Shown: one piece after another, positions 3,749-19,177 of the stretch | Position numbering within the stretch: position 1 is the stretch's first letter | Layout of the letters: each line of letters opens with the position of its first letter | Origin: Actinobacteria bacterium 21-64-8 | Lineage (GTDB): Bacteria; Actinomycetota; Acidimicrobiia; Acidimicrobiales; RAAP-2 | Assembly: GCA_002255315.1 (NCBI GenBank) | Contig: NCBD01000002.1 | Location: 1-19,177 of the forward strand | DNA length: 19,177 nucleotides | Direction of reading: 5' to 3' | Position numbers and translations under genes: made by a program | Notes under the pieces: model-generated | Told to the model about the DNA's origin: nothing | Database searches by the model: none | The model's input: only the letters and a program-made list of their open reading frames with translations

Positions 3749-4231
3749 ATGGCGTTTCGTCGATGCGTCGTGTCGCTCGAAGTGCTCGACGACGCGCGTG
3801 CGGACTTCGAGACCGGCGATCTCGTGGACGTCGTCAACGGGGACGCGACGATGGTGATCGCGGCTCTGGGGAGCGCGAGCCCGGTCGAGCTCGGACTGTG
3901 GTTGCGTGTTGACGAGCAGCGTCCCGCCGCATTGGCGGCGCGCGATCTCGCCACGTTGTCACATCTGGTGCACTTTGGCGTCGTGGTGATTGCCGCGCAG
4001 GTGGACTGTCGCGCGCAGGCCGACGCCGTGCGCGCGCTCTTGAGCGCGGATGAGGTGAACTTTTCGAACGAGGTCGCGACGCTGCGGGGCGCCTACAACC
4101 GTCCCGCGCCGGCGTGGCCCCTCGAGGTGGTGAGCAGTGACGGCGTGACAATCTTTCGCGGCGACGACCGCTGGGTGCTGCGAGCGCGCGACGCTCGACC
4201 TTGGGGCGAGGTCCTGTCTTATGGTCCCTAG
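3749..4231 (+). CDS. Hypothetical protein resembling a truncated luciferase-like monooxygenase
   Basis: This 160-residue product follows the DUF2469 gene by 3 bp and so belongs to the same operon. No family is assigned with confidence. Two segments resemble luciferase-like (LLM) flavin/F420 oxidoreductases in the same order. AALAARDLATLSHLVHFGVV is like the helix and strand usually reading LAKxLATLDxLSxGR. DAVRALLSADEVNF followed by LRGAYNRPAP is like the LWTxxxVxFxGxxxxLxxxxxxPxP region. LLM proteins are normally about 280-350 residues, and the catalytic and cofactor-binding stretch between these segments is missing here. It may be a shrunken, non-catalytic descendant. The LLM link is inference from pattern. 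The last bases overlap the convergent PPOX gene by 4 bp. Confidence 0.75.
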   Translation: MAFRRCVVSLEVLDDARADFETGDLVDVVNGDATMVIAALGSASPVELGLWLRVDEQRPAALAARDLATLSHLVHFGVVVIAAQVDCRAQADAVRALLSADEVNFSNEVATLRGAYNRPAPAWPLEVVSSDGVTIFRGDDRWVLRARDARPWGEVLSYGP

Positions 4232-4629
4232 GCCAGCTGCTGTGAAATACGGTCGGGGCGGATGCGAACGGTTACGCGCACCTCACCCTCTTTGCGCAAG
4301 GGGTACGTGTCAACGTCCATGTACTTCTTCGCCAGCTGGTCAATAACGTCGTCGGCGCCCTCGGTCGTAAAGCCCACGACCGTGCCTCGAATGGCAATCA
4401 CCGCATAGGGGTTGTCGGGATCGGTGAGCGAGATCGCGACCCGGGCGTCGTTCGCGAGATTCTTCGCCTTCGCGCGCCCGAGGGCGGTGTTGATCACGAT
4501 GTCGTCGCCGTCGAGTCGACACCACACGGGCGTGACGTTCGGTGAGCCGTCGGCTTCGAGGGTCGCTAGGTGGGCGAAGACTTTTTTCGCGAACAGTTCG
4601 CGCGAGGCGTCAGAGAAGGTGTCGGCCAT
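4228..4629 (-). CDS. PPOX-class (pyridoxamine 5'-phosphate oxidase-like) flavin/F420-dependent enzyme
   Basis: This 133-residue split-barrel protein is of the pyridoxamine-phosphate-oxidase-like superfamily, whose actinobacterial members bind FMN or F420 and reduce diverse substrates. Evidence is the ordered pattern ATLEADGSPNVTPVWCRLDG, the following INTALGRAKAKNLANDARVA with ISLTDPDNPYAVIAIRG, and a C-terminal VRVTVRIRPDRIS. Substrate and true cofactor cannot be read from sequence. The start is the ATG preceded by AAAGGAG with a 6-nt spacer. A longer frame upstream to 4695 would run across the nfo start and has no ribosome-binding site, so it was rejected. Convergent with the preceding gene, sharing a CTAG with it, and divergent from nfo across 48 bp. 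Confidence 0.92.
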   Translation of the reverse strand: MADTFSDASRELFAKKVFAHLATLEADGSPNVTPVWCRLDGDDIVINTALGRAKAKNLANDARVAISLTDPDNPYAVIAIRGTVVGFTTEGADDVIDQLAKKYMDVDTYPLRKEGEVRVTVRIRPDRISQQLA

Positions 4630-4664
4630 GGTGGCTCCTTTTCGAGGGTTCGAGTGGGGGGAAC

Positions 4665-4670
4665 TAGGTT
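4665..4670 (+). promoter_or_regulatory. Candidate -10 element of a leaderless nfo promoter
   Basis: TAGGTT lies exactly 7 nt before the GTG start of nfo, which would place the transcription start at the start codon. There is no well-spaced Shine-Dalgarno for that GTG. No convincing -35 box is visible. The same arrangement recurs at several other genes in this window. Confidence 0.5.
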
Positions 4671-4677
4671 TACTGTA

Positions 4678-5703
4678 GTGAATATTGGAGCGCACGTACG
4701 CGGGGGCGGCAAGCTCGTGCCCTCACTCGAAGCCGGCGTTGAAATAGGCGCCACGTCGATTCAGATCTTCGTACAGAGTCCGCGCATGTGGAAACCCTCG
4801 CAGTACGCACCCGAGGTACTCGCCGCCTTTCGTGAAGCCCAAGCCGCTCACCCGAGCGTGCGCCAAACGTTTTGTCACGCGACCTATCTAATTAACCTCG
4901 CCTCGAGTGACGCCGAACTTTACGAGAAGTCGGTCGCTTGCCTAACGAGCAACTTGTCGGTGGCGCGCGGCATGGCCTCGTCGGGCGTCGTCTTACACGT
5001 GGGTTCGCACAAGGGTGCCGGATTCGACGACGTGATCGGCCAAATCAGTGAAGCCTTTTTGCGTGCGCTGAGTGACGCCGACCCCACGCCCGAAGGTTGG
5101 CCCGACTGTCCGATCCTGATTGAGAACGCCGCGGGCGCGGGAGGAACGGTGGGTCGAAGTCTTGACGAAATCGCGGCGCTGATCGACGCCTGTGATGGCG
5201 ACGAGCGCTTAGGACTGTGCATCGACACCCAGCATCTGTGGGCGAGTGGCGTTGACTATTCGAGTGTCGAGGGCACCGAAGCGCTCGTGGCAACGATAGA
5301 TGCCGCCGTGGGTCTTGAGCGTCTGCGCTGCTTTCACCTGAATGACTCGAAGATTGAACTTGGGGGTAACCGCGATCGCCACGCCAACATTGGTGAGGGC
5401 ACGATTGGGGCCCAGGGGCTCGCCCCCCTCGTCGGACATCCGCGCTTTCGTGACCTGCCGTTGTTGCTCGAAGTGCCCGGCGACGGTGAGGGCCCACGCG
5501 CGGTGGACGTCGCGGCGGCTCGAAGGGTGGTGAACGCCGGGATCAAGCTGTACGACGCGCCGTCGGCGACCGGCGCGGCCACTAAGGCAACCAGAATCGC
5601 CAAAGCATCGAAGTCCACGAAGTCGACGAAGACAACGACGGCGCCGGCGACGGTCAAAGCCGTGAAGAATTCAAAGAAGTCATCGACCAACAAAGGGAAG
5701 TAA
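4678..5703 (+). CDS. nfo: Endonuclease IV (AP endonuclease) with Lys/Thr/Ser-rich C-terminal tail
   Basis: Endonuclease IV cleaves 5' to abasic sites in base-excision repair, using a trinuclear zinc site in a TIM barrel. The metal ligands are all visible by position: H67, H107, E149 (ILIEN), D183 and H186 ([11 protein letters not shown]), H220 (HLNDSK), D233 and H235 ([11 protein letters not shown]) and E265 (LLEVPGDG). The catalytic barrel ends near residue 293. A further ~48 residues form a low-complexity basic tail of Lys, Ser, Thr and Ala with repeated KST/KSTK units, which is not part of the standard enzyme (about 280 residues). The GTG start gives the normal N-terminus (MNIGAHV); the frame is open further upstream but that part overlaps the PPOX gene. 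The gene probably shares a transcript with fumC 5 bp downstream. Confidence 0.95.
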
Positions 5704-7101: not shown

Positions 7102-7677
7102 TTAACGCACGGGCAAGTTCCACAGCGCCATCCAGCGCGACAGATCCTTTTCAATCGGTAGATCGGTGCCGAGAAATGAACGCACGCGAAGCTCGAGTTC
7201 GTTATCGCGCGCGTTCGCGCTCGTCGGGGCGAAGGGGTAGAACGTGCCCTGCTTTAAGAGATAGACGAGGCGCACCGATCCCTCACCCGGCGGCGTCTTG
7301 GGCTGGAAACCAAAGACCGCACACAACAGTCGAGGACCGAGACCGTGTTCTACCATCGAGGTATTGGCCGCGTGCACCCGGGTGACTTGACTCTCGAGAT
7401 CGGGGTCGGTTACGACGAGCCAGCGAAAGCCGAGATCGTCAGTCGTGAGCGTCACGGAGTCATTCGTCGGATCAAAGTCGAGCAGGCCCTTGATGTCGTC
7501 GTCGGTCTCGAGCGTCGTTTCGCCGCTGCTGGCCTTAAAGCACAGCCCCGCCTGACCCGAGGTGACCAGGTCCAGTTCGGTCTCGAGGGTAATCGCCGCG
7601 TTGGTGAGGGCGAAGAGGTTGTCGAGTTTGGGCGCGACCTGTTTCGTGCGTCCAAAGAGTGAGTCGCGCAGTCCCAC
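7102..7677 (-). CDS. pspAB: PspA-associated protein PspAB
   Basis: This 191-residue protein belongs to the actinobacterial PspAB family, named for its linkage to pspA. Recognised from the start VGLRDSLFGRTKQVAPKLDN, LFALTNAAITLE, FRWLVVTDPDLESQVTR, the LLCAVFGF strand and the signature LVYLLKQGTFYPFAP, then DLSRWMALWNLP at the end. Its biochemical role is not established; it is presumed to act in the PspA membrane-stress response. The start is GTG overlapping the htpX stop by 1 nt (TAGTG). The longer frame upstream to 7995 is an out-of-frame shadow of htpX and was rejected. Last gene of the pspA-htpX-pspAB operon. Confidence 0.93.
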   Translation of the reverse strand: MGLRDSLFGRTKQVAPKLDNLFALTNAAITLETELDLVTSGQAGLCFKASSGETTLETDDDIKGLLDFDPTNDSVTLTTDDLGFRWLVVTDPDLESQVTRVHAANTSMVEHGLGPRLLCAVFGFQPKTPPGEGSVRLVYLLKQGTFYPFAPTSANARDNELELRVRSFLGTDLPIEKDLSRWMALWNLPVR

Positions 7678-8582
7678 TAGCCGTTGAGTTCGCGCTCGAG
7701 TTTGTTGAGTTGGTCGAGACGCTTTTCGAGCGAGGGGTGCGTCGAAAAGAGCGTCGCCGCCGTACCGCCAGCGAGTGCGGGGGCGAAGAAGAAGGCGTTC
7801 ATACCTTCGGCCTTGCGAAGGTCGGTGCGGGGAATTTTCCCCATGTCGCCGGTGATGTGCACCAGCGCGCTCGCGAGCACGCTGGGCTTGCCGATCAAGA
7901 TGGCGCCCGAGCGGTCGGCGGCGAGCTCGCGGTATCGCGATAGGGCCATGGTGAGCAAAAAGGCAATCACGTAGATCACCATCGACACGAGCCAAGTCAC
8001 CATCTCGAGCAGGACGAGATTCTCACCGTCTCGTGAACGTCCGCCGCCCGAGAGCATCGCGCCCCACATCGCCATACGACTGATGAGTCCCGCGAGCATC
8101 CCTACGCCCGAGGCGATCGTCATCATCGCCACGTCGCGGTGCGCGACGTGGGAGAGCTCGTGACTCAACACGGCCTCTACCTCTTCGTCACTGAGGCGGC
8201 TCATGAGTCCGCGCGTCGTGCAGATGACCGCGTTCTTCGGGCTGCGTCCGGTGGCGAAGGCGTTGGGGATGTCCATCTCCGAAACTCCCACGCGCGGCTT
8301 GGGCATGTTCGCGAGCAGGCAGAGTCGATCGACGATTTCGTGGAGACGAGGCTCTTGTTGGGGCGTCACTTCGTGCGCGCGCATCGAGAACATGGCGATC
8401 TTGTCGGAGAAGTAGTACTGGGAGAACAAGAGGGCGGCACCAATCACCACCACGACGAGCGTTGAGACGCCCAGTTTCAACATCACGGTGACGAGGATTG
8501 CGTAGAGCAGCACGAGCGCGAGACCCGTGATGAACATCCGAACGTTCAGTCCGTGATCGCTTTCAATCTTTGATTTCGCCAT
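7677..8582 (-). CDS. htpX: M48-family membrane zinc metalloprotease HtpX
   Basis: HtpX degrades misfolded or damaged inner-membrane proteins. The 301-residue product shows two N-terminal membrane helices (about 14-35 and 38-54), the zinc motif HELSH (H141, E142, H145) followed by VAHRD, two further membrane segments (about 152-175 and 192-214), and the third zinc ligand E219 in YRELAADRSGA. The ATG overlaps the pspA stop by 1 nt (TAATG) and its stop overlaps pspAB by 1 nt, so the three genes are translationally coupled. Linkage to PspA suggests joint handling of membrane damage. Confidence 0.97.
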   Translation of the reverse strand: MAKSKIESDHGLNVRMFITGLALVLLYAILVTVMLKLGVSTLVVVVIGAALLFSQYYFSDKIAMFSMRAHEVTPQQEPRLHEIVDRLCLLANMPKPRVGVSEMDIPNAFATGRSPKNAVICTTRGLMSRLSDEEVEAVLSHELSHVAHRDVAMMTIASGVGMLAGLISRMAMWGAMLSGGGRSRDGENLVLLEMVTWLVSMVIYVIAFLLTMALSRYRELAADRSGAILIGKPSVLASALVHITGDMGKIPRTDLRKAEGMNAFFFAPALAGGTAATLFSTHPSLEKRLDQLNKLERELNG

Positions 8583-9325
8583 TATTGCGGCTCCCCACTG
8601 GCCGGCAGTTCGGCGCTGACGGGTGCGCTCGACACTTGATTCTTCAGCGCCGCGAGTTGGGCGTCGATGTCGGAGTTGGCGCTCGCCTTGTCGAGCTGGG
8701 CCTGGATGTCGTCGGTGTTGGTACCCGTGAGATCGGTCAAGGCGCCTGAACTCATCAGTTCGTCCAGGGCGCCACTACGGGCCTGCATTTGGGCGACCTT
8801 ATCCTGGGCGCGCTGCATCGCGGCGCCGGCATCACCCATGGAGGTCGAGATGCCGCTGATGGCTTCAGAGACGTGGGCCGACGCTTCGGCGGCGGTGTAA
8901 GTCGCCTTGATGGTCTCTTTCTTCGTGCGAAAGGCCTCCACTTCGGTCTGGAGTTTGGTGGCGGTGTCTTCGAGCTTGTGCTGTTGTTCTTCGACCTGGG
9001 CGTGCTGGGTCTCGAGATCCTTGAGTTGGGCGACGAGCGCTTCGCGCCGCGTGAGTGCTTCGCGCGCGAGGGGCTCGTTGCCTTGGCTCATCGCCGCCTT
9101 GGCCTGGTCGGCGAGTTTGTCACCCTGGGCCTTAATCTGTTCGGCCTGGATTTCGACGCGCTTGCGCGCGGTGGCGACGTCGGCGACGGCGCGCTTGACC
9201 TTGGTGAGGTTTTCGAGCTGCTGCTCGTACGAGAGATCCAGCGTCTCACGCGGGTCTTCGGCGTTATTGAGAGCCGTGTTCGCCTTGGCCTGAAAGATGG
9301 TGGAGATTCGCTTCATGACACCCAC
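8582..9325 (-). CDS. pspA: Phage shock protein A (PspA/IM30 family)
   Basis: PspA is an ESCRT-III-like coiled-coil protein that coats damaged cytoplasmic membrane and protects the proton gradient. The 247-residue product has the amphipathic N-terminal helix (KRISTIFQAKANTALNNAED), the conserved DPRETLDLSYEQQ, and then long heptad-like Gln/Lys/Glu/Ala coiled coil to about residue 190. A flexible Ser/Ala/Pro C-terminus follows. The GTG start (MGVMKRIS) has AAAGGAGG 5 nt upstream. An ATG three codons later would be 14 nt away, and the frame extending to 9376 crosses the promoter. First gene of the envelope-stress operon with htpX and pspAB. Confidence 0.96.
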   Translation of the reverse strand: MGVMKRISTIFQAKANTALNNAEDPRETLDLSYEQQLENLTKVKRAVADVATARKRVEIQAEQIKAQGDKLADQAKAAMSQGNEPLAREALTRREALVAQLKDLETQHAQVEEQQHKLEDTATKLQTEVEAFRTKKETIKATYTAAEASAHVSEAISGISTSMGDAGAAMQRAQDKVAQMQARSGALDELMSSGALTDLTGTNTDDIQAQLDKASANSDIDAQLAALKNQVSSAPVSAELPASGEPQ

Positions 9326-9350
9326 GAGGGCCTCCTTTACGTTGGAACCC

Positions 9351-9356
9351 AGACTA
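9351..9356 (-). promoter_or_regulatory. Candidate -10 element of the pspA operon
   Basis: TAGTCT on the minus strand fits the actinobacterial TANNNT pattern and lies about 25 nt upstream of the pspA GTG, leaving room for the AAAGGAGG ribosome-binding site in a short leader. A weak GTGAGT sits about 18 nt further upstream as a possible -35. No enhancer-type sigma-54 site was seen. Confidence 0.4.
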
Positions 9357-9399
9357 GGGCGAAGAGGGTGGTGCACTCACGGGCATCCCCATGATTTTG

Positions 9400-11512: not shown

Positions 11513-12109
11513 CTAATACGGCACGGTCGTGTGCTTGAACTCGTTGAGGTCGCGCTGCGTGCTCATGAGCGCCACCAGTGAGGTCACGAGCGTCGTCGAA
11601 GCGTTCTCGTCAGCAGTGGGCTCTTTCATGTAGCGCACGAAAGTGGCGTCGTCGTCCACCACGAACGTCGGAACGCCGAAGGCCTCGTAGCGCTCGAATC
11701 GCCGGAAATTTTCGCCCAGCACCTTGTGGGGACGACGCGTGCGAAGGTCGGCCTCAACGAGAGCCAGGTCGACGGGAATCGCGCTCAGCGCGCGCTCGAT
11801 ATCGCTCCACGTCTTAAGGGCGAGCCCCTGTTCGTGGCGAGCACGAAAGAGCGCCTCGTGCGCCGCGAGAAAGAGCTCAGGTTGTTGGTCGCGAATGGAG
11901 ATACTCACCGCGAGCGCGAGGTGGTCGGGGTCTCGCTCGGGGTCGTCCCACACGTCGGGAGCCCCCTCGAGGCGGTAGCCCTGACTCATCGTCCACGGTA
12001 CGAACTCGACGTCAAAGTCGGCGCCGGCACGCAGCGCCGTGACGACGTGGAGGTGAATATTTTTGGCGAACGGACAGCGGTAATCGTAAGAAAGTTGGAA
12101 AGTCAACAC
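11513..12109 (-). CDS. DsbA-family thioredoxin-like protein with single-cysteine CPFA motif
   Basis: This 198-residue protein has the DsbA/FrnE-like thioredoxin fold with helical insertion. The active-site position reads YDYRCPFAKN with C12 but Ala at the second cysteine position, so it cannot form the usual CxxC disulfide and may act as a monothiol enzyme, for example a mycothiol- or thiol-dependent transferase or isomerase. The cis-Pro loop is visible as YEAFGVPTFVV, and the conserved actinobacterial ending LNEFKHTTVP is present. No signal peptide, so cytoplasmic. The GTG start gives the fold's first strand directly (LTFQLSYDYRC) and lies 6 nt after a TACACT hexamer. The longer frame upstream overlaps the nuclease gene. 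Substrate unknown. Confidence 0.88.
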   Translation of the reverse strand: MLTFQLSYDYRCPFAKNIHLHVVTALRAGADFDVEFVPWTMSQGYRLEGAPDVWDDPERDPDHLALAVSISIRDQQPELFLAAHEALFRARHEQGLALKTWSDIERALSAIPVDLALVEADLRTRRPHKVLGENFRRFERYEAFGVPTFVVDDDATFVRYMKEPTADENASTTLVTSLVALMSTQRDLNEFKHTTVPY

Positions 12110-12115
12110 CAACCA

Positions 12116-12121
12116 AGTGTA
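12116..12121 (-). promoter_or_regulatory. Candidate -10 element of a leaderless dsbA-like gene
   Basis: TACACT on the minus strand lies 6 nt before the GTG, in the short gap after the nuclease gene's stop. It would allow transcription independent of the upstream gene. No Shine-Dalgarno is present for this start. Confidence 0.4.
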
Positions 12122-12125
12122 GGGA

Positions 12126-12917
12126 TTAGCGCACCACGACCGGCACGCCGTTGGCGCGGCATCGTTCCTTAAAGGCGCAGAATCGACAGGCCTGCGCCGA
12201 GGGAGTCGCGGGAAAGTCCCCTTCGTCGTAGTAGCGCACGATGCGCGCCCACGCGTCGTGTGCCGCTTGGACTCGCGCCTGAACGACGACGTCGCTGACG
12301 CGTCGCTCGAGGACGCTGCCCTTAGCGACGTAGAGGAGACGAATCGTGTCGGGTCGTTCGCCGAACGCCGTTTCGCACAGCGCCGCATAGAGATCGGTAT
12401 TCGCGAAGGTTGACGCGTCGTAGCGCCGATCCGGTACCGCACCCGTTTTATAGTCGATGATCGCCAGCGTGCCGTCGTCATCGCGGTCAAGGCGATCCAG
12501 AATTCCTAGCAGTGGTGTGTCGGCGACGGTGGCGCTTAGGCGAAGTTCGGCGCCCTCGGAGACAATGGTGCGGGGATCTTCCATCTGGAAATACGTCACG
12601 AGAATCTCGTCGCTTTCGCGACGGAGCTTGTCGAGTAAGTCCTCGTCCATCGCCAGATCGGCGCGCACGTCGTCGGTCAACACTTCGAGTTCCGCGGCGT
12701 CGCGAAAGCCTCGCGCCGCCGCGAGCGAGCGCGCGCTGGGTTCGAGGCGAAAGAGTTGCTCGAGCAGGAAGTGCACGAAACGGCCCTTCGTACTGGCGTA
12801 GGAAGCGGGCTGGGCGATGCGGTCGACCGAGGCGTGTTGGTAACGCCGCGGGCAGGCGCGAAAGTCGTTTAGTCGAGAGGGCGAGAGCGCGACGGGGAGG
12901 GGTTGGTCAAAGGCCAT
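12126..12917 (-). CDS. PD-(D/E)XK (RecB/Cas4-like) nuclease with predicted Fe-S cluster
   Basis: This 263-residue stand-alone nuclease is of the RecB/Cas4-like PD-(D/E)XK superfamily. Nuclease motifs are in order: GRFVHFLLE with H49, GILDRLD with D141, IIDYKTG with D155 and K157, and a DLYAAL helix. Four cysteines, C22 (FRACPRRY) and C244, C247 and C253 (ACRFCAFKERC), are placed as in the iron-sulfur 'staple' of AddB and Cas4 proteins. It probably cuts or resects DNA in repair. There is no CRISPR array, Cas gene or fused helicase nearby. The ATG has no Shine-Dalgarno but follows a TAGCGT hexamer by 6 nt. The family is confident; the specific role is unknown. Confidence 0.9.
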   Translation of the reverse strand: MAFDQPLPVALSPSRLNDFRACPRRYQHASVDRIAQPASYASTKGRFVHFLLEQLFRLEPSARSLAAARGFRDAAELEVLTDDVRADLAMDEDLLDKLRRESDEILVTYFQMEDPRTIVSEGAELRLSATVADTPLLGILDRLDRDDDGTLAIIDYKTGAVPDRRYDASTFANTDLYAALCETAFGERPDTIRLLYVAKGSVLERRVSDVVVQARVQAAHDAWARIVRYYDEGDFPATPSAQACRFCAFKERCRANGVPVVVR

Positions 12918-14692: not shown

Positions 14693-15355
14693 ATGACGAA
14701 GAAATCTATGAACGTGGCGCGCGTCGCCACGTCGTCTGCCCTAGGTATCGCCCTCGCCGTTGGCGGGACCAGCGTTGCCTTTGCGCACGGCGCTAAGGAT
14801 CACGGTCGATCCAACGATCACCACGCCGCCCGAGGCCACCGCCACGGAGTCGACGGCACGATTAGTGCCCTCAGCGCCACGACGCCGGGTACGTTGACGT
14901 TGACGATGCGTGACGGTTCCACCGTGACCTACACGACCACCGCCGCGACGACCTACTTCGAAGGCCGCGCGAGCGCGACCTCGAGTGCGCTCGCCGTGGG
15001 TGAGCAAGTGGACGTGGCTCTGAACGCCACGACCCCGACCACGCTCGACAGTGTCCGTATTGACTTGACGCACTTTGAGGGCAAGATCCTCGCGATTACC
15101 GGTGCTGCTGGTGCGGCCACGATTACCTTGAGTGGACCCAACAACACCACGCGCACCGTGCTGGTGACGCCCTCGACCACCTTTGAGATGAAGGGCCAAA
15201 CGGCCACCTTTAGCTCACTGGTTGTTGGTGCGGAGATGGGCGCCATGGGTCTTGACGCTTCGAACAACACACTCAGTGCGTTGTCGATTCGTGTCAGTGC
15301 GCCTGAGTCATCACCGCAACAACACTCGTTGAACAACGATGGCGGACGTAACTAA
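14693..15355 (+). CDS. Secreted His-rich protein with tandem DUF5666-like domains
   Basis: The 220-residue product has a Sec signal peptide: basic MTKKSMNVAR, a hydrophobic core to about residue 27, and a likely cleavage after AFA at residue 31. The mature N-terminus begins with a short histidine cluster (six His between residues 32 and 51), which could bind metal. Two DUF5666-like beta units follow. The first runs from about GVDGTISALSATTPGTLTLT to the VDVAL region, the second from about HFEGKILAITG to the end. The domain's function is unknown. The ATG has GAGAGAGG about 9 nt upstream; an earlier in-frame start at 14657 lacks this and would spoil the signal peptide. A strong terminator follows. 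Confidence 0.85.
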   Translation: MTKKSMNVARVATSSALGIALAVGGTSVAFAHGAKDHGRSNDHHAARGHRHGVDGTISALSATTPGTLTLTMRDGSTVTYTTTAATTYFEGRASATSSALAVGEQVDVALNATTPTTLDSVRIDLTHFEGKILAITGAAGAATITLSGPNNTTRTVLVTPSTTFEMKGQTATFSSLVVGAEMGAMGLDASNNTLSALSIRVSAPESSPQQHSLNNDGGRN

Positions 15356-15383: not shown

Positions 15384-15432
15384 GCCGCACCTTGAGTGAG
15401 TCCTTGGGATCGCTCAAGGTGCGGCTTTTCGT
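15384..15432 (+). terminator. Rho-independent terminator after the DUF5666 gene
   Basis: A 16-bp stem has arms at 15384-15399 and 15410-15425, with a single G.T pair and otherwise perfect match (GCCGCACCTTGAG paired with CTCAAGGTGCGGC). The loop is 10 nt and TTTTCGTTT follows the stem directly. It lies 28 bp after the DUF5666 stop. Confidence 0.92.
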
Positions 15433-15449
15433 TTGAAGCCCCAGCGCGC

Positions 15450-15471
15450 CTCTTCGCGATTCCGCGAAGAG
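15450..15471. repeat. Second perfect hairpin downstream of the terminator
   Basis: CTCTTCGCG and CGCGAAGAG arms (9 bp, perfect) flank a 4-nt loop. It lies between the + strand terminator and the minus-strand isomerase gene, 22 bp past the latter's stop. There is no T-run on either side, so it may serve as a transcript-end stabiliser or Rho-dependent/bidirectional stop for the minus-strand gene. Confidence 0.5.
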
Positions 15472-15492
15472 ATTTCACTCGTGGTCGGGACT

Positions 15493-16167
15493 TCAGCCGA
15501 ACGCAGGGAACAAGGAACTGAGTTCTCCGAGTTCTCGGCGTTCATCAAGATTCAGCCGCTCCCTTCCGGTCGATTTTCGGATGAAGGAAAGGTCATCCCA
15601 ACGCTCAAGCCGCGTGGACTCCGTCAGGGCGTCGAGGGTGGTAACTAACGAGCGCATCACCTCCTCCGAAGGCGACAGCCCACGTTCGAGGTTCTCGACG
15701 AGATCAAAATGATGTACGGCGAACTCGGTATTCCACATCGAGAGAAAGTGGTCCGTCTCCATTACGTGCGACTGGAAGACGACGCGACCCTGCGACGCGT
15801 GCGTACACGCCGTTTGCGCGGCGCACGCCGAGACGTCGAAGTGGCTCTTCAGCGAGTTGGTGCTTGCGTACGAGGCGGTTTGGGCCCAGAGCCAGCGAAC
15901 ATCCGTGAATCCCGTCGGCCCTTGAGGCGGCCAATCTTTCCAGTACGACAGGGCGTCGCGGTCTGCTGGATCGTCGGTTTCGGAAACTAGGCCTTGCAGA
16001 ATCTCATTGGTGCCCAGTCGCAGATGGGTAATCAAATCGGCGACGCGCCAGCCAGCGCACGCCGTCGGCTTTATTACGTCGGCGTCGCTCAGTCCCGCCA
16101 CGATGGTTCGAAGATGGAGGATTTCTCGTTGGAGCAATTCTCTGGGGTCGACGTTCGTCATTTCCAT
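15493..16167 (-). CDS. Mycothiol-dependent maleylpyruvate isomerase family (DinB-like) protein
   Basis: This 224-residue protein is of the MDMPI_N/DinB four-helix-bundle group, whose actinobacterial members use mycothiol and a divalent metal. The N-terminal segment PTACAGWRVADLITHLRLG and the later TEFAVHHFDL supply the expected metal ligands H48, E148 and H152, matching the H-E-H set known in the family. The actual substrate is unknown; few members are true maleylpyruvate isomerases. ATG at 16167 starts the longest form; a second ATG two codons later (16161) lies 6 nt after CAATGT and could be the real start. Neither has a Shine-Dalgarno. The gene supports an actinobacterial, mycothiol-making host. 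Confidence 0.88.
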   Translation of the reverse strand: MEMTNVDPRELLQREILHLRTIVAGLSDADVIKPTACAGWRVADLITHLRLGTNEILQGLVSETDDPADRDALSYWKDWPPQGPTGFTDVRWLWAQTASYASTNSLKSHFDVSACAAQTACTHASQGRVVFQSHVMETDHFLSMWNTEFAVHHFDLVENLERGLSPSEEVMRSLVTTLDALTESTRLERWDDLSFIRKSTGRERLNLDERRELGELSSLFPAFG

Positions 16168-16415
16168 ACATTGGCACGTGTCGTCGTCGCTGAGATTACC
16201 GGTGAGGGTTTATTTTGCTGGGGAGATGGCGAGCAGCCCCGCCATTTTCGCCGCCGCAGCGCGATCACGGGCAGATCGGTTTCGCGAACTAGTACCGAGA
16301 AGATGGTGGCGCCCAAGAGTGCGGGCGAATCGGGCCTGAGTGGACACGGCGCGCACCGTTTCTGCCCTCCTTACCGAGCGCGACGGCGCCACCAGCGCTG
16401 GCGCTTCTCGCAGTT
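16168..16415. other. Intergenic stretch without recognised gene
   Basis: 248 bp lie between two minus-strand genes. Open frames across it on both strands have no ribosome-binding site or recognisable protein and extend over flanking genes. A 6-bp stem (ATGGCG/CGCCAT at 16226-16245) followed by TTTT on the + strand has no + strand gene to terminate. Confidence 0.5.
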
Positions 16416-17006
16416 CTAACCCGTGCGTGGAACGGGACCTCGTTGGATTGAGGTCACCGAAAAGTGAAACCCGGCATAGCAGAAATTGATGTTCACGCTC
16501 GTGTCGAAAAACTGCGTGAAGGGGTGCGTGCGCAGAGGGAGCGAGAAGTAAAAGTGTTGCGTCATGCACGGGCCAGCGTTTGGAGCTTGTTGGTCATACG
16601 CGTCGCCGTAGTCAATGCCAAACGAAGCGGTGGCGCCGGGTTTGATGATCACTGATCTCGGTTTGACGGCCACAAAAATCATGCCGCCACCATTCACTAC
16701 CTTTACCGCCACCCCTTGGTACGAGGCTGGCGACACGCGGACTTTGGGGTATCCCTTCAGGCGACAGGCCGAGTGGCTTCGATTCACCATCAGAAAGGGA
16801 ATACCCTCGTTGCCCGCTGCGGCGTATGCCCCGGAGCTACTCACGACCGCGACTTCGAGTTGTGAGAAGGAACACGTGGGGATTCCAGTGGACGCCGAAG
16901 CATCGGTCGTCACCGAATACAAGGGCAGCCCAATTGAACTCACCGTGGCGAGCAACAGAGCCAACGTTCGTGGCGAGAAATGTGCGTGCGCTTGCCGTGT
17001 ACTCAT
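16416..17006 (-). CDS. Secreted DUF4232-domain protein
   Basis: The 196-residue product has an N-terminal signal peptide (hydrophobic stretch from about residue 13 to 30, likely processing near DASASTG). It is followed by one DUF4232 domain, a family common among actinobacterial exported and lipoproteins of unknown function. Landmarks are the Cys-containing first strand TCSFSQLEV, GAYAAAGNEGIPFLMVNRS, CRLKGYPKVRVSP and later PCMTQH and INFCYAG; four Cys suggest two disulfides. There is no lipobox. The ATG follows an AGGGG sequence; a GTG directly upstream (17009) is too close to it. It is downstream of the DUF929 gene on the same strand, with 198 bp between, so co-transcription is uncertain. 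Confidence 0.88.
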   Translation of the reverse strand: MSTRQAHAHFSPRTLALLLATVSSIGLPLYSVTTDASASTGIPTCSFSQLEVAVVSSSGAYAAAGNEGIPFLMVNRSHSACRLKGYPKVRVSPASYQGVAVKVVNGGGMIFVAVKPRSVIIKPGATASFGIDYGDAYDQQAPNAGPCMTQHFYFSLPLRTHPFTQFFDTSVNINFCYAGFHFSVTSIQRGPVPRTG

Positions 17007-17204
17007 CACACCCCTGGAATCACTCGCTTTGAATCACCATACTTAGACCTTGACGACATCGCATGACGTGATCATCCCAACCGAGTCGGCGCGGAGCCGT
17101 CCAGTCGCCCCAATAGGTCTGGCGCCCAGCCCTGGGTGTCTTCACGGTGAGGAGTCCTAGGTTCGGCCAAGGTCGTTCGTGCTCCTCGACGCCGATCCAG
17201 CTGG

Positions 17205-18395
17205 TCACAGTCCTTTGCCGCTGGTACCTGGAGGACACTTGCCTTCAAGTGACAGTGCCCAGACGGTGATCCCGGGTGGAATACCGAGCGTGGTCTTCTG
17301 GTATCGAGTTGAAACGACGGAGATTTTGATGACGGTACACGCCGGATTGGGCGCCCGATAGGTCGCGGCGGCGTGGAGCATGAAGTCGTGCTGACGCACG
17401 CTCCAGGCCCGCCAGAGCGACCGTGGCGCGTTGGTGGGCGGCGGCGTGGGATACGTCGACGCACTGGGCGACTGCGAGGTCGGTGACACTCCAGAGACGA
17501 GTGCCTTCGACGCCGCGCGAATCACAGGCGTCGCACACAGCGGCGGGCTCGCTCCTTGCACCATGGTGCACAGCGCGGCGATCAGATAGTTCGCGGTGCC
17601 ATCTACCGCTTGGGCGACGGGACTCGACGCGACACTGAGGTCTCGTCCGATGCCGGCGAGCGTGAGACCCTCAAGTACCGAGGGGGACGCGCTGGCGCCG
17701 AGTGTGACGTAGCGGTTACCCACGTCGACAAAGGGCAACTCACTACTGGGGTTGTATCTCGTAAAGGCAAGCTTTTGTGCCGGCGACATCGATTCGAGTG
17801 GCGCATATCCGCCCCGGGCGTTGGGCGTCGACGAAGTCAGTTCGGTGGGATCAAACGTGAAGTAGGGACTGGAATACTTCGCGCCGATAAAGCTCCAACT
17901 CGCCAAATGTGGATAAACGTCGCTTGACGACGAGAGGATTTGATGATCGAGGTTGGTAAACGTGCCGAACTTGGACAGCGCCACCAGCAGTGCCCAGCGC
18001 TGTAACGCACAAAAGGGGCAGTACTCGGCGCCGACGTAGGAGACGACGCCGTTGGTCGCGGCGGTGGTGACGGACGGCGTGACGTGGTTGGGCACGGAGA
18101 TGTTCGCGGGAAGTCCCACGGCTTCGAGGGTGGCGATGGGCACGCTGCCCGCGGCCCGAAAGTACGACGCGAGTTGTACAGGGGCAGCGTTCGAGTTCGG
18201 CGAGGTAGGTGCTGGCGAGCCGTTGAGTGTGGTGAAACTAAAGGCGCCGACGACGACGAGCGCGAGTAGTCCAAACGCGAAGGAGCGACGACGAACGTGG
18301 CGTCGGCGACTCCGGGCGCGAAGATGCTCGATGTTCGGGCGTGGTGCCAGCGGTTCGTCGATGAGGGCTTGGGTCAATCGCGTGAGTTGTGACAT
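17205..18395 (-). CDS. Membrane-anchored DUF929 (thioredoxin-like) protein with anti-sigma-like N-terminus
   Basis: The 396-residue product has a cytoplasmic N-terminus of about 37 residues ending in a strongly basic stretch ([12 protein letters not shown]), one membrane helix at about 38-54, and a Ser/Pro/Thr linker. A DUF929 domain at about 75-290 contains [20 protein letters not shown] with a CxxC pair C126/C129, [12 protein letters not shown] as the likely cis-Pro-like region, and C276/C287 at its end. A Pro-rich linker ([14 protein letters not shown]) leads to an unrecognised ~70-residue C-terminal part with C353 and C387. The start layout is typical of genes placed after SigE-type ECF sigma factors. 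The ATG has TAGGAGA upstream, which includes the sigma gene's TAG stop 10 bp away. An anti-sigma role is inferred, not shown. Confidence 0.88.
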
Positions 18396-18405
18396 GGCTT
18401 ATCTC

Positions 18406-18927
18406 CTAGATTTCTTCTTCGCCGAGGAGGCGACCTAAATGTTGATGGGCGTCGTGCAAGGTGCTCGAGACCGTGCCTCGACTAATACCCAAGACCACCC
18501 CAATTTCGTTCTCGCTTAATTCGGCGACGTGGCGCAACATCACTACCTGTCGTTGACGTGGTGAAAGCGATTCGACGAGCTGCCAGACCTCGCCGGCGGG
18601 CGAGGGGAGATCGGGCATGGGCGTCGGCTTTTGAAAGAACCGTTGCTCGAAACTTCTGCGACGTGCCACTCGTCGTGCGTGGTTCATGGCAACGCGGTAG
18701 ACCCAGCCAGAGGGCGATTCCAACACACTGACGCGCTTCCAACGCTCCAGCGCCCGTGAGCACGCTTCGTCGACGCCTTCTTTGGCGAGTTCTAGGTCAC
18801 CCGTTGACAACGCCAAAGTGGCAATCATCCGGTCGTGTTCGCGCGAGTACCAGGCTTCAAAGGACTCCACGAAAATCAATTCTCCCTGCTGAATCTGAGC
18901 GACGCGCGGTCCACTGACAATGTCCAT
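18406..18927 (-). CDS. ECF (SigE-like) RNA polymerase sigma factor
   Basis: This 173-residue sigma factor directs RNA polymerase to a dedicated promoter set. Region 2 starts near FEAWYSREHDRMIATLAL and includes ALERWKRV and GWVYRVAMNHARRVARRR. Region 4 reads LSPRQRQVVMLRHVAELS, then the helix-turn-helix ENEIGVVLGISRGTVSSTL. This arrangement matches actinobacterial SigE-type ECF factors, whose partner gene is normally adjacent. Start uncertain: GTG-GTG-ATG occur in tandem at 18933, 18930 and 18927, none with a Shine-Dalgarno; ATG was chosen. A later GTG just before ESFEAW is also possible. It is co-transcribed with the DUF929 gene 10 bp downstream. Confidence 0.93.
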   Translation of the reverse strand: MDIVSGPRVAQIQQGELIFVESFEAWYSREHDRMIATLALSTGDLELAKEGVDEACSRALERWKRVSVLESPSGWVYRVAMNHARRVARRRSFEQRFFQKPTPMPDLPSPAGEVWQLVESLSPRQRQVVMLRHVAELSENEIGVVLGISRGTVSSTLHDAHQHLGRLLGEEEI

Positions 18928-18963
18928 CACCACTTCAAGTCACGGGAGAGGCAAATCGCTGGG

Positions 18964-18976
18964 TACGACTGTCGTA
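18964..18976. promoter_or_regulatory. Perfect palindrome upstream of the sigma factor gene
   Basis: TACGACTGTCGTA has 6-bp arms around one base. On the minus strand it overlaps a TATACG hexamer that could be a -10 box, about 35-45 nt before the sigma gene start. This position suits an operator. No known regulator family is assigned. Confidence 0.4.
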
Positions 18977-19089
18977 TAGGCACCAAGCCCTTTGTGTTGT
19001 CGCGCAATCGGGCTCGCGAATTGCTGACGATCGGATAAAGCCCCTTAGCCAAGAGAGTCGAACGCTGGCGTCACATCAGAACGTCTGCG

Positions 19090-19095
19090 TAGCCT
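19090..19095 (+). promoter_or_regulatory. Candidate -10 element of a leaderless gene at the right edge
   Basis: TAGCCT lies exactly 7 nt before a GTG at 19103, the same spacing as at nfo and purK. No -35 box or Shine-Dalgarno is visible. Confidence 0.35.
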
Positions 19096-19102
19096 CGTTG
19101 CC

Positions 19103-19177
19103 GTGAGGGTGGTTCTTGGCGGCGGCGTCGTTGCCGTGTGTCATGGAGTCTGTATTGGCGCAATCCCAACAACGTCG
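19103..19177 (+). CDS. Possible start of a gene running off the window
   Basis: A GTG opens a frame of 25 codons with no stop before the window ends. The product begins MRVVLGGGVVAVCHGV, a Gly/Val-rich hydrophobic stretch that could be a signal segment or the first strand of a nucleotide-binding fold; too little is present to choose. The call rests mainly on the well-placed TAGCCT 7 nt upstream. It would be divergent from the sigma factor gene. Confidence 0.35.
   Translation, partial: MRVVLGGGVVAVCHGVCIGAIPTTS

Follow-up and report, generated by a model that had tools for sequence, protein, structure and literature searches.

Do the sigma factor gene of this locus and the membrane protein gene that follows it form a regulatory switch, in which a thioredoxin-like domain outside the cell is connected to transcription? 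We analyzed this question in the window, that is, the whole stretch of DNA under study (19,177 nucleotides), and in related genomes. The original prediction, that two open reading frames represent a sigma gene and a coupled second gene joined by TAGGAGA as both stop codon and ribosome-binding site, agreed with our examination of the two frames, which, like all features of the window given below with a coordinate range, lie on the minus strand. Based on Pfam and NCBIfam matches and on alignment, the first gene (18406-18933) encodes an ECF sigma factor that contains sigma2 and sigma4 only. Region 4 scored 48.3 bits, over its Pfam cut-off, and region 2 fell just under its own (23.2 bits, cut-off 24), whereas the TIGR02937 (sigma70-ECF) score of 57.1 bits exceeded the required 42.9, which places the protein among the ECF sigma factors. 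Its proposed designation as SigE-type holds as a nearest likeness, but not as membership: TIGR02983 (SigE-fam_strep) was the best NCBIfam model, with 107.8 bits, below the cut-off of 141.55. The TAGGAGA sequence (18402-18408) contains the sigma stop TAG and GGAG, with 10 nt between the stop and the ATG of the partner gene, and TAGGAG was likewise placed in loci L004-L009.

The partner gene (17205-18395) encodes a protein of 396 aa which, judged from its Pfam match and its linkage, is predicted to span the membrane once and to carry a DUF929 domain on its extracytoplasmic side; it is a candidate anti-sigma factor and sensor. Its PF06053 (DUF929) score was 53.9 bits (cut-off 24.6), which supports membership, with residues 114-187 only aligned to part of the profile. 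The translation and this match showed the expected layout of a basic N-terminus (about 39 residues), one hydrophobic stretch and an outer DUF929 domain with CPFC at residues 126-129. Residues 1-39 (18279-18395) appear to form a basic cytoplasmic tail, with a predicted helix at residues 2-12 followed by a second helix from residue 22; the structure model contains helices 2-12 and 22-51, with only moderate pLDDT in the tail (about 59-72 per block). This tail, similar forms of which were found elsewhere, was better conserved (mean top-residue frequency 0.63) than both the transmembrane segment (0.42) and the linker (0.32). The predicted transmembrane helix, whose limits are approximate, comprises residues 40-58 (18222-18278), as indicated by a hydrophobic stretch, the model helix 22-51 and the hydropathy of relatives.

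The outer part contains a DUF929 domain, probably thioredoxin-like, at residues 100-287 (17535-18098), an assignment that draws on Pfam, the structure model and the available text of PMC3091736. The CPFC motif (18009-18020), defined by frame conservation and the model, opens helix 127-140. Both of its cysteines were found in all 15 sigma-linked frames and in all 69 other DUF929 frames, and its proline in 15/15 and 66/69, respectively; the equal conservation of the CPxC cysteines in DUF929 proteins without a sigma factor indicates that they are not special to sensing. P221 (17733-17735), which precedes strand 222-225 in the model, is a candidate cis-proline (14/15 sigma-linked and 69/69 other frames), and C276 and C287 (17535-17570) form a second conserved cysteine pair (15/15 and 69/69). 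Frame alignment further distinguished a C-terminal extension at residues 326-396 (17208-17420), with C353 in 12 and C387 in 10 of the 15 sigma-linked frames; neither was aligned in any of the 69 others. The zinc anti-sigma motif is HxxxCxxC and the class I anti-sigma domain has a size of 101 ± 33 residues according to the available text of PMC7406223. By eye, the translation shows a tail of about 39 residues and is free of cysteine up to residue 60, so that the protein fits neither the zinc nor the class I type; the absence of a zinc motif was as predicted. Searches with the tail gave no match among PDB sequences or Pfam anti-sigma families. Foldseek alone gave no match at E 0.001 or better, and a PDB profile search for the partner returned only weak, unrelated-looking matches (E 0.22 or worse).

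Conserved linkage of sigma and DUF929 genes had been set beforehand as a test of the proposed switch, and such linkage was observed. Among 80 named DUF929 loci (of 172 encoding a relative), a sigma gene lay directly upstream in all 15 tail-bearing loci, whereas it was found in none of the 65 tail-less ones. Tail-bearing loci were defined by a profile match from position 1 or 2, and the other 65 matched from position 12 or later; five tail-less loci (L049, L053, L068, L091 and L112) had less than 600 bases upstream. The partner gene thus shows the anti-sigma trait of adjoining its ECF sigma gene in 15/15 tail-bearing loci. Within the first 32 loci, a sigma gene was directly upstream in the locus of the window (L002, identical to L003), L004-L009 and L011-L015, and in none of the rest, of which L010 and L018 are truncated by the contig end and lack upstream DNA. 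Since 11 of the 15 named-record pair loci lie on the same contigs as family-genome loci, there are 16 distinct pair loci including the window. At least 11 pairs besides that of the window occurred in 150 genomes of the family, plus two truncated at contig ends (30 loci examined), and some DUF929 match was present in 140 of these genomes. Identity to the sigma factor of the window went down to 45% among 10 aligned relatives. The pair-bearing named records, which go by the titles Acidimicrobiaceae, Actinomycetes or actinobacterium, are metagenome assemblies. A protein database search found 364 matches, and among the matches listed the tail was present in 98 of 120 relatives; several of the 22 tail-less ones look clipped or mis-started.

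Plain synteny was rejected as the cause of this linkage. When seven ORFs of the window were compared with the surroundings of the other 15 pair loci (4.3-11.2 kb per locus) at E 1e-5, none matched, and the sigma and DUF929 controls in the same search each matched in 15/15 loci; therefore, the linkage does not reflect plain synteny. Judged by these comparisons, what is conserved is a tightly coupled two-gene unit, not a large block. A plasmid location was also considered and rejected, as one plasmid record matched, with 31% identity over 55% of the query. The Site-2 protease family PF02163 was present in 14/14 pair genomes and also in 14/14 controls, and was thus uninformative.

Several other observations were made on these loci. 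In L043 (genome G016, about 4150-4830), the sigma gene of the pair lacks region 2 and the promoter-like element described below is missing; by eye, the DNA preceding this gene looks, in a different frame, like the terminal part of a TetR-type regulator. This locus may be either a rearranged remnant or a misassembly. L051, L053 and L076 carry tandem DUF929 genes and no sigma gene. DUF929 relatives were also seen on contigs titled as archaeal MAGs (L064, L067, L074, L087, L105, L108 and others), with no sigma match around them. In the window itself, a DSBA-like protein (PF01323) is encoded at 11513-12490, where the listed ORF overlaps a PDDEXK gene and probably starts too early, and a PspA/IM30 family gene adjoins an M48 membrane peptidase gene (7677-9376), a pairing of envelope-stress type.

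Analysis of the DNA preceding the sigma gene revealed a promoter-like element, CCCAGC-N15-TGACTTG (18936-18963), which is likely the sigma factor's own promoter and was recovered with zero mismatches in its own genome. Its general form, CCCVGC-N15/16-TGACTTG (V is A, C or G), was located directly upstream of the sigma gene in 15 of the 16 pair loci, with L043 as the exception, and in none of 121 other loci (823,270 bases). Such a distribution suggests autoregulation of the sigma factor through this candidate element. A looser pattern gave an extra match at window position 15039, which is probably due to chance, and a scan of 15400-19177 for sigma-70-type promoters found none. In 14 of the 15 loci with the element, the start codon lies 7-9 nt past it (for the window and L037, this uses the ATG located at 8 nt); for L041, the script placed the start 61 nt away. 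Because the start codons of relatives fall 7-9 nt past the conserved TGACTTG, the sigma protein of the window more likely starts at ATG 18927 (173 aa) than at GTG 18933. The same short spacing, together with the lack of any ribosome-binding site visible by eye between the element and the sigma start, suggests a leaderless sigma message.

The regulon appeared to be narrow. When at most one mismatch was allowed, 14 genomes yielded 10 matches, of which nine lie at the pair's sigma gene and one lies within a DUF929 gene; in G106, the match is at the contig edge and the sigma start is still readable. With up to two mismatches, there were 33 matches in the 14 genomes vs 27 for the control. With up to three mismatches in eight genomes, 42 matches were obtained, of which eight were the pair promoter and 34 were outside the operon, vs 25 for the control. 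A wider regulon was therefore rejected: beyond the operon itself the numbers were near the control, and no second target promoter stood out. As near-exact matches occur at the pair and non-operon matches are close to control level, the sigma factor probably controls mainly its own operon, plus a few other genes or others whose elements are too degenerate to see.

To place the tail in a broader context, we searched the partner alignment against 296 genomes of the class and found at least 12 matches that were confined to the N-terminal part and had no DUF929 domain, a lower bound as at most six candidates were scored per genome. Ten of these 12 were encoded directly behind an ECF sigma gene (48 to 205 bits with the profile of the window's group). 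The other two (L151, FKBP-like by eye, and L152) had no sigma gene, and such matches should be read with caution, since profiles of a basic stretch plus a transmembrane helix can match by composition. The outer parts included LysM (L146), DUF6923 (L147) and a weak BNR-like match (L150), and several had no Pfam match. A DUF6923-like repeat is common to the outer parts in L147 (2369-3481) and L153 (1770-2912), which come from different class-level genomes, although it passed the Pfam cut-off in L147 only; perhaps it represents a recurring sensor type. In L205 (2012-3091), a locus from the sigma-based search described below, the partner of a SigE-like sigma factor has a DUF4232 outer domain. A DUF4232 protein gene is also present in the window (16416-17009), on the same strand as the DUF929 gene and some 195 nt downstream of it.

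A search that started from the sigma factors in 12 genomes turned 30 of 36 places into loci, 24 of which, from six genomes, were not the DUF929 pair. In these six genomes, 22 of the 23 SigE-like sigma genes with an evaluable next ORF precede a gene for a protein in which the best hydrophobic window begins at residue 34-53. The exception was L209, in which the frame behind the sigma gene is without a membrane helix and seems spurious; at L207 and L210, no following gene could be evaluated. In the genomes examined, the SigE-like sigma factors of the class thus have, by sequence, a coupled partner that crosses the membrane once, has a short tail and varies in its outer domain. Conservation of the tail and its likeness to the tails of other ECF sigma partners fit a sigma-contacting module, and DUF929 looks like one interchangeable sensor on this wider architecture. 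Accordingly, the earlier view that no system of this form had been described needs to be narrowed: the layout of a SigE-like sigma factor with a coupled, basic-tailed single-pass protein recurs in the genomes of the class that were examined, and it is the DUF929 outer domain that is special.

For the 22 non-DUF929 pairs, whose partner ORFs were chosen by a script as the longest that begin close to the sigma stop, the correlation of sigma and tail similarity was weak and not significant (Spearman 0.39, p 0.07; Mantel p 0.34), so that co-evolution of sigma factor and tail is not supported for this set. The values within single genomes were 0.75 (p 0.05) for G280 and 0.32 (p 0.48) for G169, and the outer-domain control gave a Mantel p of 0.91. 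In the 15 DUF929 pairs, sigma identity tracked the DUF929 core (Spearman 0.87) and tracked the tail (0.68) better than the transmembrane segment plus linker (0.25); shared descent also accounts for the agreement with core and tail.

Comparison with known systems, made by description from the available text of the cited papers, revealed partial parallels. In Bradyrhizobium japonicum, the membrane anti-sigma factor OsrA of the pair OsrA-EcfF reportedly reacts to oxidants via a cysteine on the outer, periplasmic side (PMC4598750). The partner in the window would likewise be a membrane anti-sigma factor with cysteines on the outer side, but it has a thioredoxin-like CPxC domain in place of a single periplasmic cysteine. 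CnrY, the class II anti-sigma factor of the CnrY/CnrX-CnrH system, embraces sigma2 and sigma4 with two helices (PMC7406223, PMC4598750); for the tail in the window, two helices are also predicted, at moderate confidence and with no PDB sequence match. In the Cnr system the sensor CnrX is a separate protein, whereas here the sensor candidate is within the same protein as the tail. In RsiV-SigV, as in the proposed switch, the anti-sigma factor doubles as the sensor; RsiV, in contrast, is a lysozyme binder that signal peptidase cleaves (PMC4183432). RsrA-SigR represents thiol redox control of an actinobacterial ECF sigma factor (PMC4598750, PMC4960319), but RsrA is a zinc protein with no membrane segment or outer domain, whereas the partner in the window has no zinc motif and has its cysteines outside. 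Although the SigE family gives its name to the nearest model of our sigma factor, SigE of S. coelicolor is described as having no anti-sigma factor, not targeting its own gene and being controlled by a two-component system (SigE-CseABC, PMC6767563). For the CU044_5270 family (NF038083), an ECF sigma match was found in 17 of 20 loci examined, and a family match above the cut-off was present in 14 of these 20. This family has another outer domain, and its sigma factors mostly score low to the window's group. The partner in the window scored 15.7 bits vs a cut-off of 100, so that its assignment to this family was rejected and the likeness considered generic. A long series of low-scoring NF038083 matches covers the basic-plus-transmembrane stretch only.

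Taken together, we favor, with reasonable though not strong confidence, a self-regulating ECF sigma/membrane-regulator switch whose partner is an anti-sigma-like regulator with a thioredoxin-like sensor. Such a switch would probably read chemical conditions outside the membrane and turn its own gene pair on. The tail, through its two predicted helices, would tether the sigma factor to the membrane and, by analogy with CnrY, probably wrap sigma2 and sigma4. A change in the outer domain, either in the thiol-disulfide state of C126/C129 or by binding of a thiol, an oxidant or a metal, might then free the sigma factor via conformational change or proteolysis. Once free, the sigma factor would act mostly on its own operon, with transcription from the element at 18936-18963, so that the loop would be positive and the regulon narrow. 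Within this model, the regulon and the assumption of a redox signal are the weakest steps. Sensing of redox, oxidant or metal is plausible because of the CPxC motif, the candidate cis-proline and the thioredoxin-like model; these conserved features speak against a partner that is a membrane anti-sigma factor but senses a non-redox cue, such as protein fold state, a peptide, a metal or the cell wall, with CPxC being structural or inherited. We regard this alternative as rather unlikely, yet of some weight, as the CPxC cysteines are just as conserved in sigma-less DUF929 proteins and the outer parts of other sigma partners (L146, L147, L150 and L205) are not thioredoxin-like by Pfam.

A role of the partner as a co-transcribed thiol-disulfide enzyme, which would be the main target of the sigma factor and use its tail as a mere membrane anchor, is harder to accept: the 65 tail-less DUF929 loci show no sigma gene, the tail is conserved, and similar tails precede other outer domains behind other sigma factors. 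That near-exact copies of the element are found almost only at the pair itself and that stand-alone DUF929 proteins are common in relatives would agree with such an enzyme, and we consider it improbable rather than negligible. The conserved coupling and the tail fit any direct partner, and hence also one that assists the sigma factor, as a positive co-factor, or recruits it to the membrane; as the membrane partners of ECF sigma factors in the cited literature, as far as its available text goes, are inhibitors (PMC7406223, PMC4598750), we give this possibility very little credence. Chance or an assembly artefact, to which the fragmented, 65% complete genome assembly of the window and the damaged sigma gene of L043 might have pointed, is refuted and has practically no probability, since the pair is conserved in 15 loci of other assemblies, 14 times together with the element.

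In the open full-text literature on DUF929, as far as its available text goes and with subscription papers and preprints outside its scope, no sigma partner was mentioned. Pairs of an ECF sigma factor and a membrane regulator are known; a thioredoxin-like sensor on such a pair was not found in the open literature searched. Beyond the switch itself, we propose tentatively, and with less than even confidence, that in actinobacteria of this class the short, Arg-rich, zinc-free two-helix tail is a general sigma-binding plug on which many outer sensors are exchanged, here a thioredoxin-like thiol-disulfide reader that feeds a self-amplifying sigma factor. If true, the favored switch would allow extracytoplasmic redox state to be sensed by a thioredoxin-like domain with a direct link to a sigma factor. 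In that case it would also assign a function to those proteins of the functionally uncharacterized DUF929 family that are linked to sigma genes, and would hint at a group of partners of SigE-like sigma factors that differ by exchange of their outer domains.
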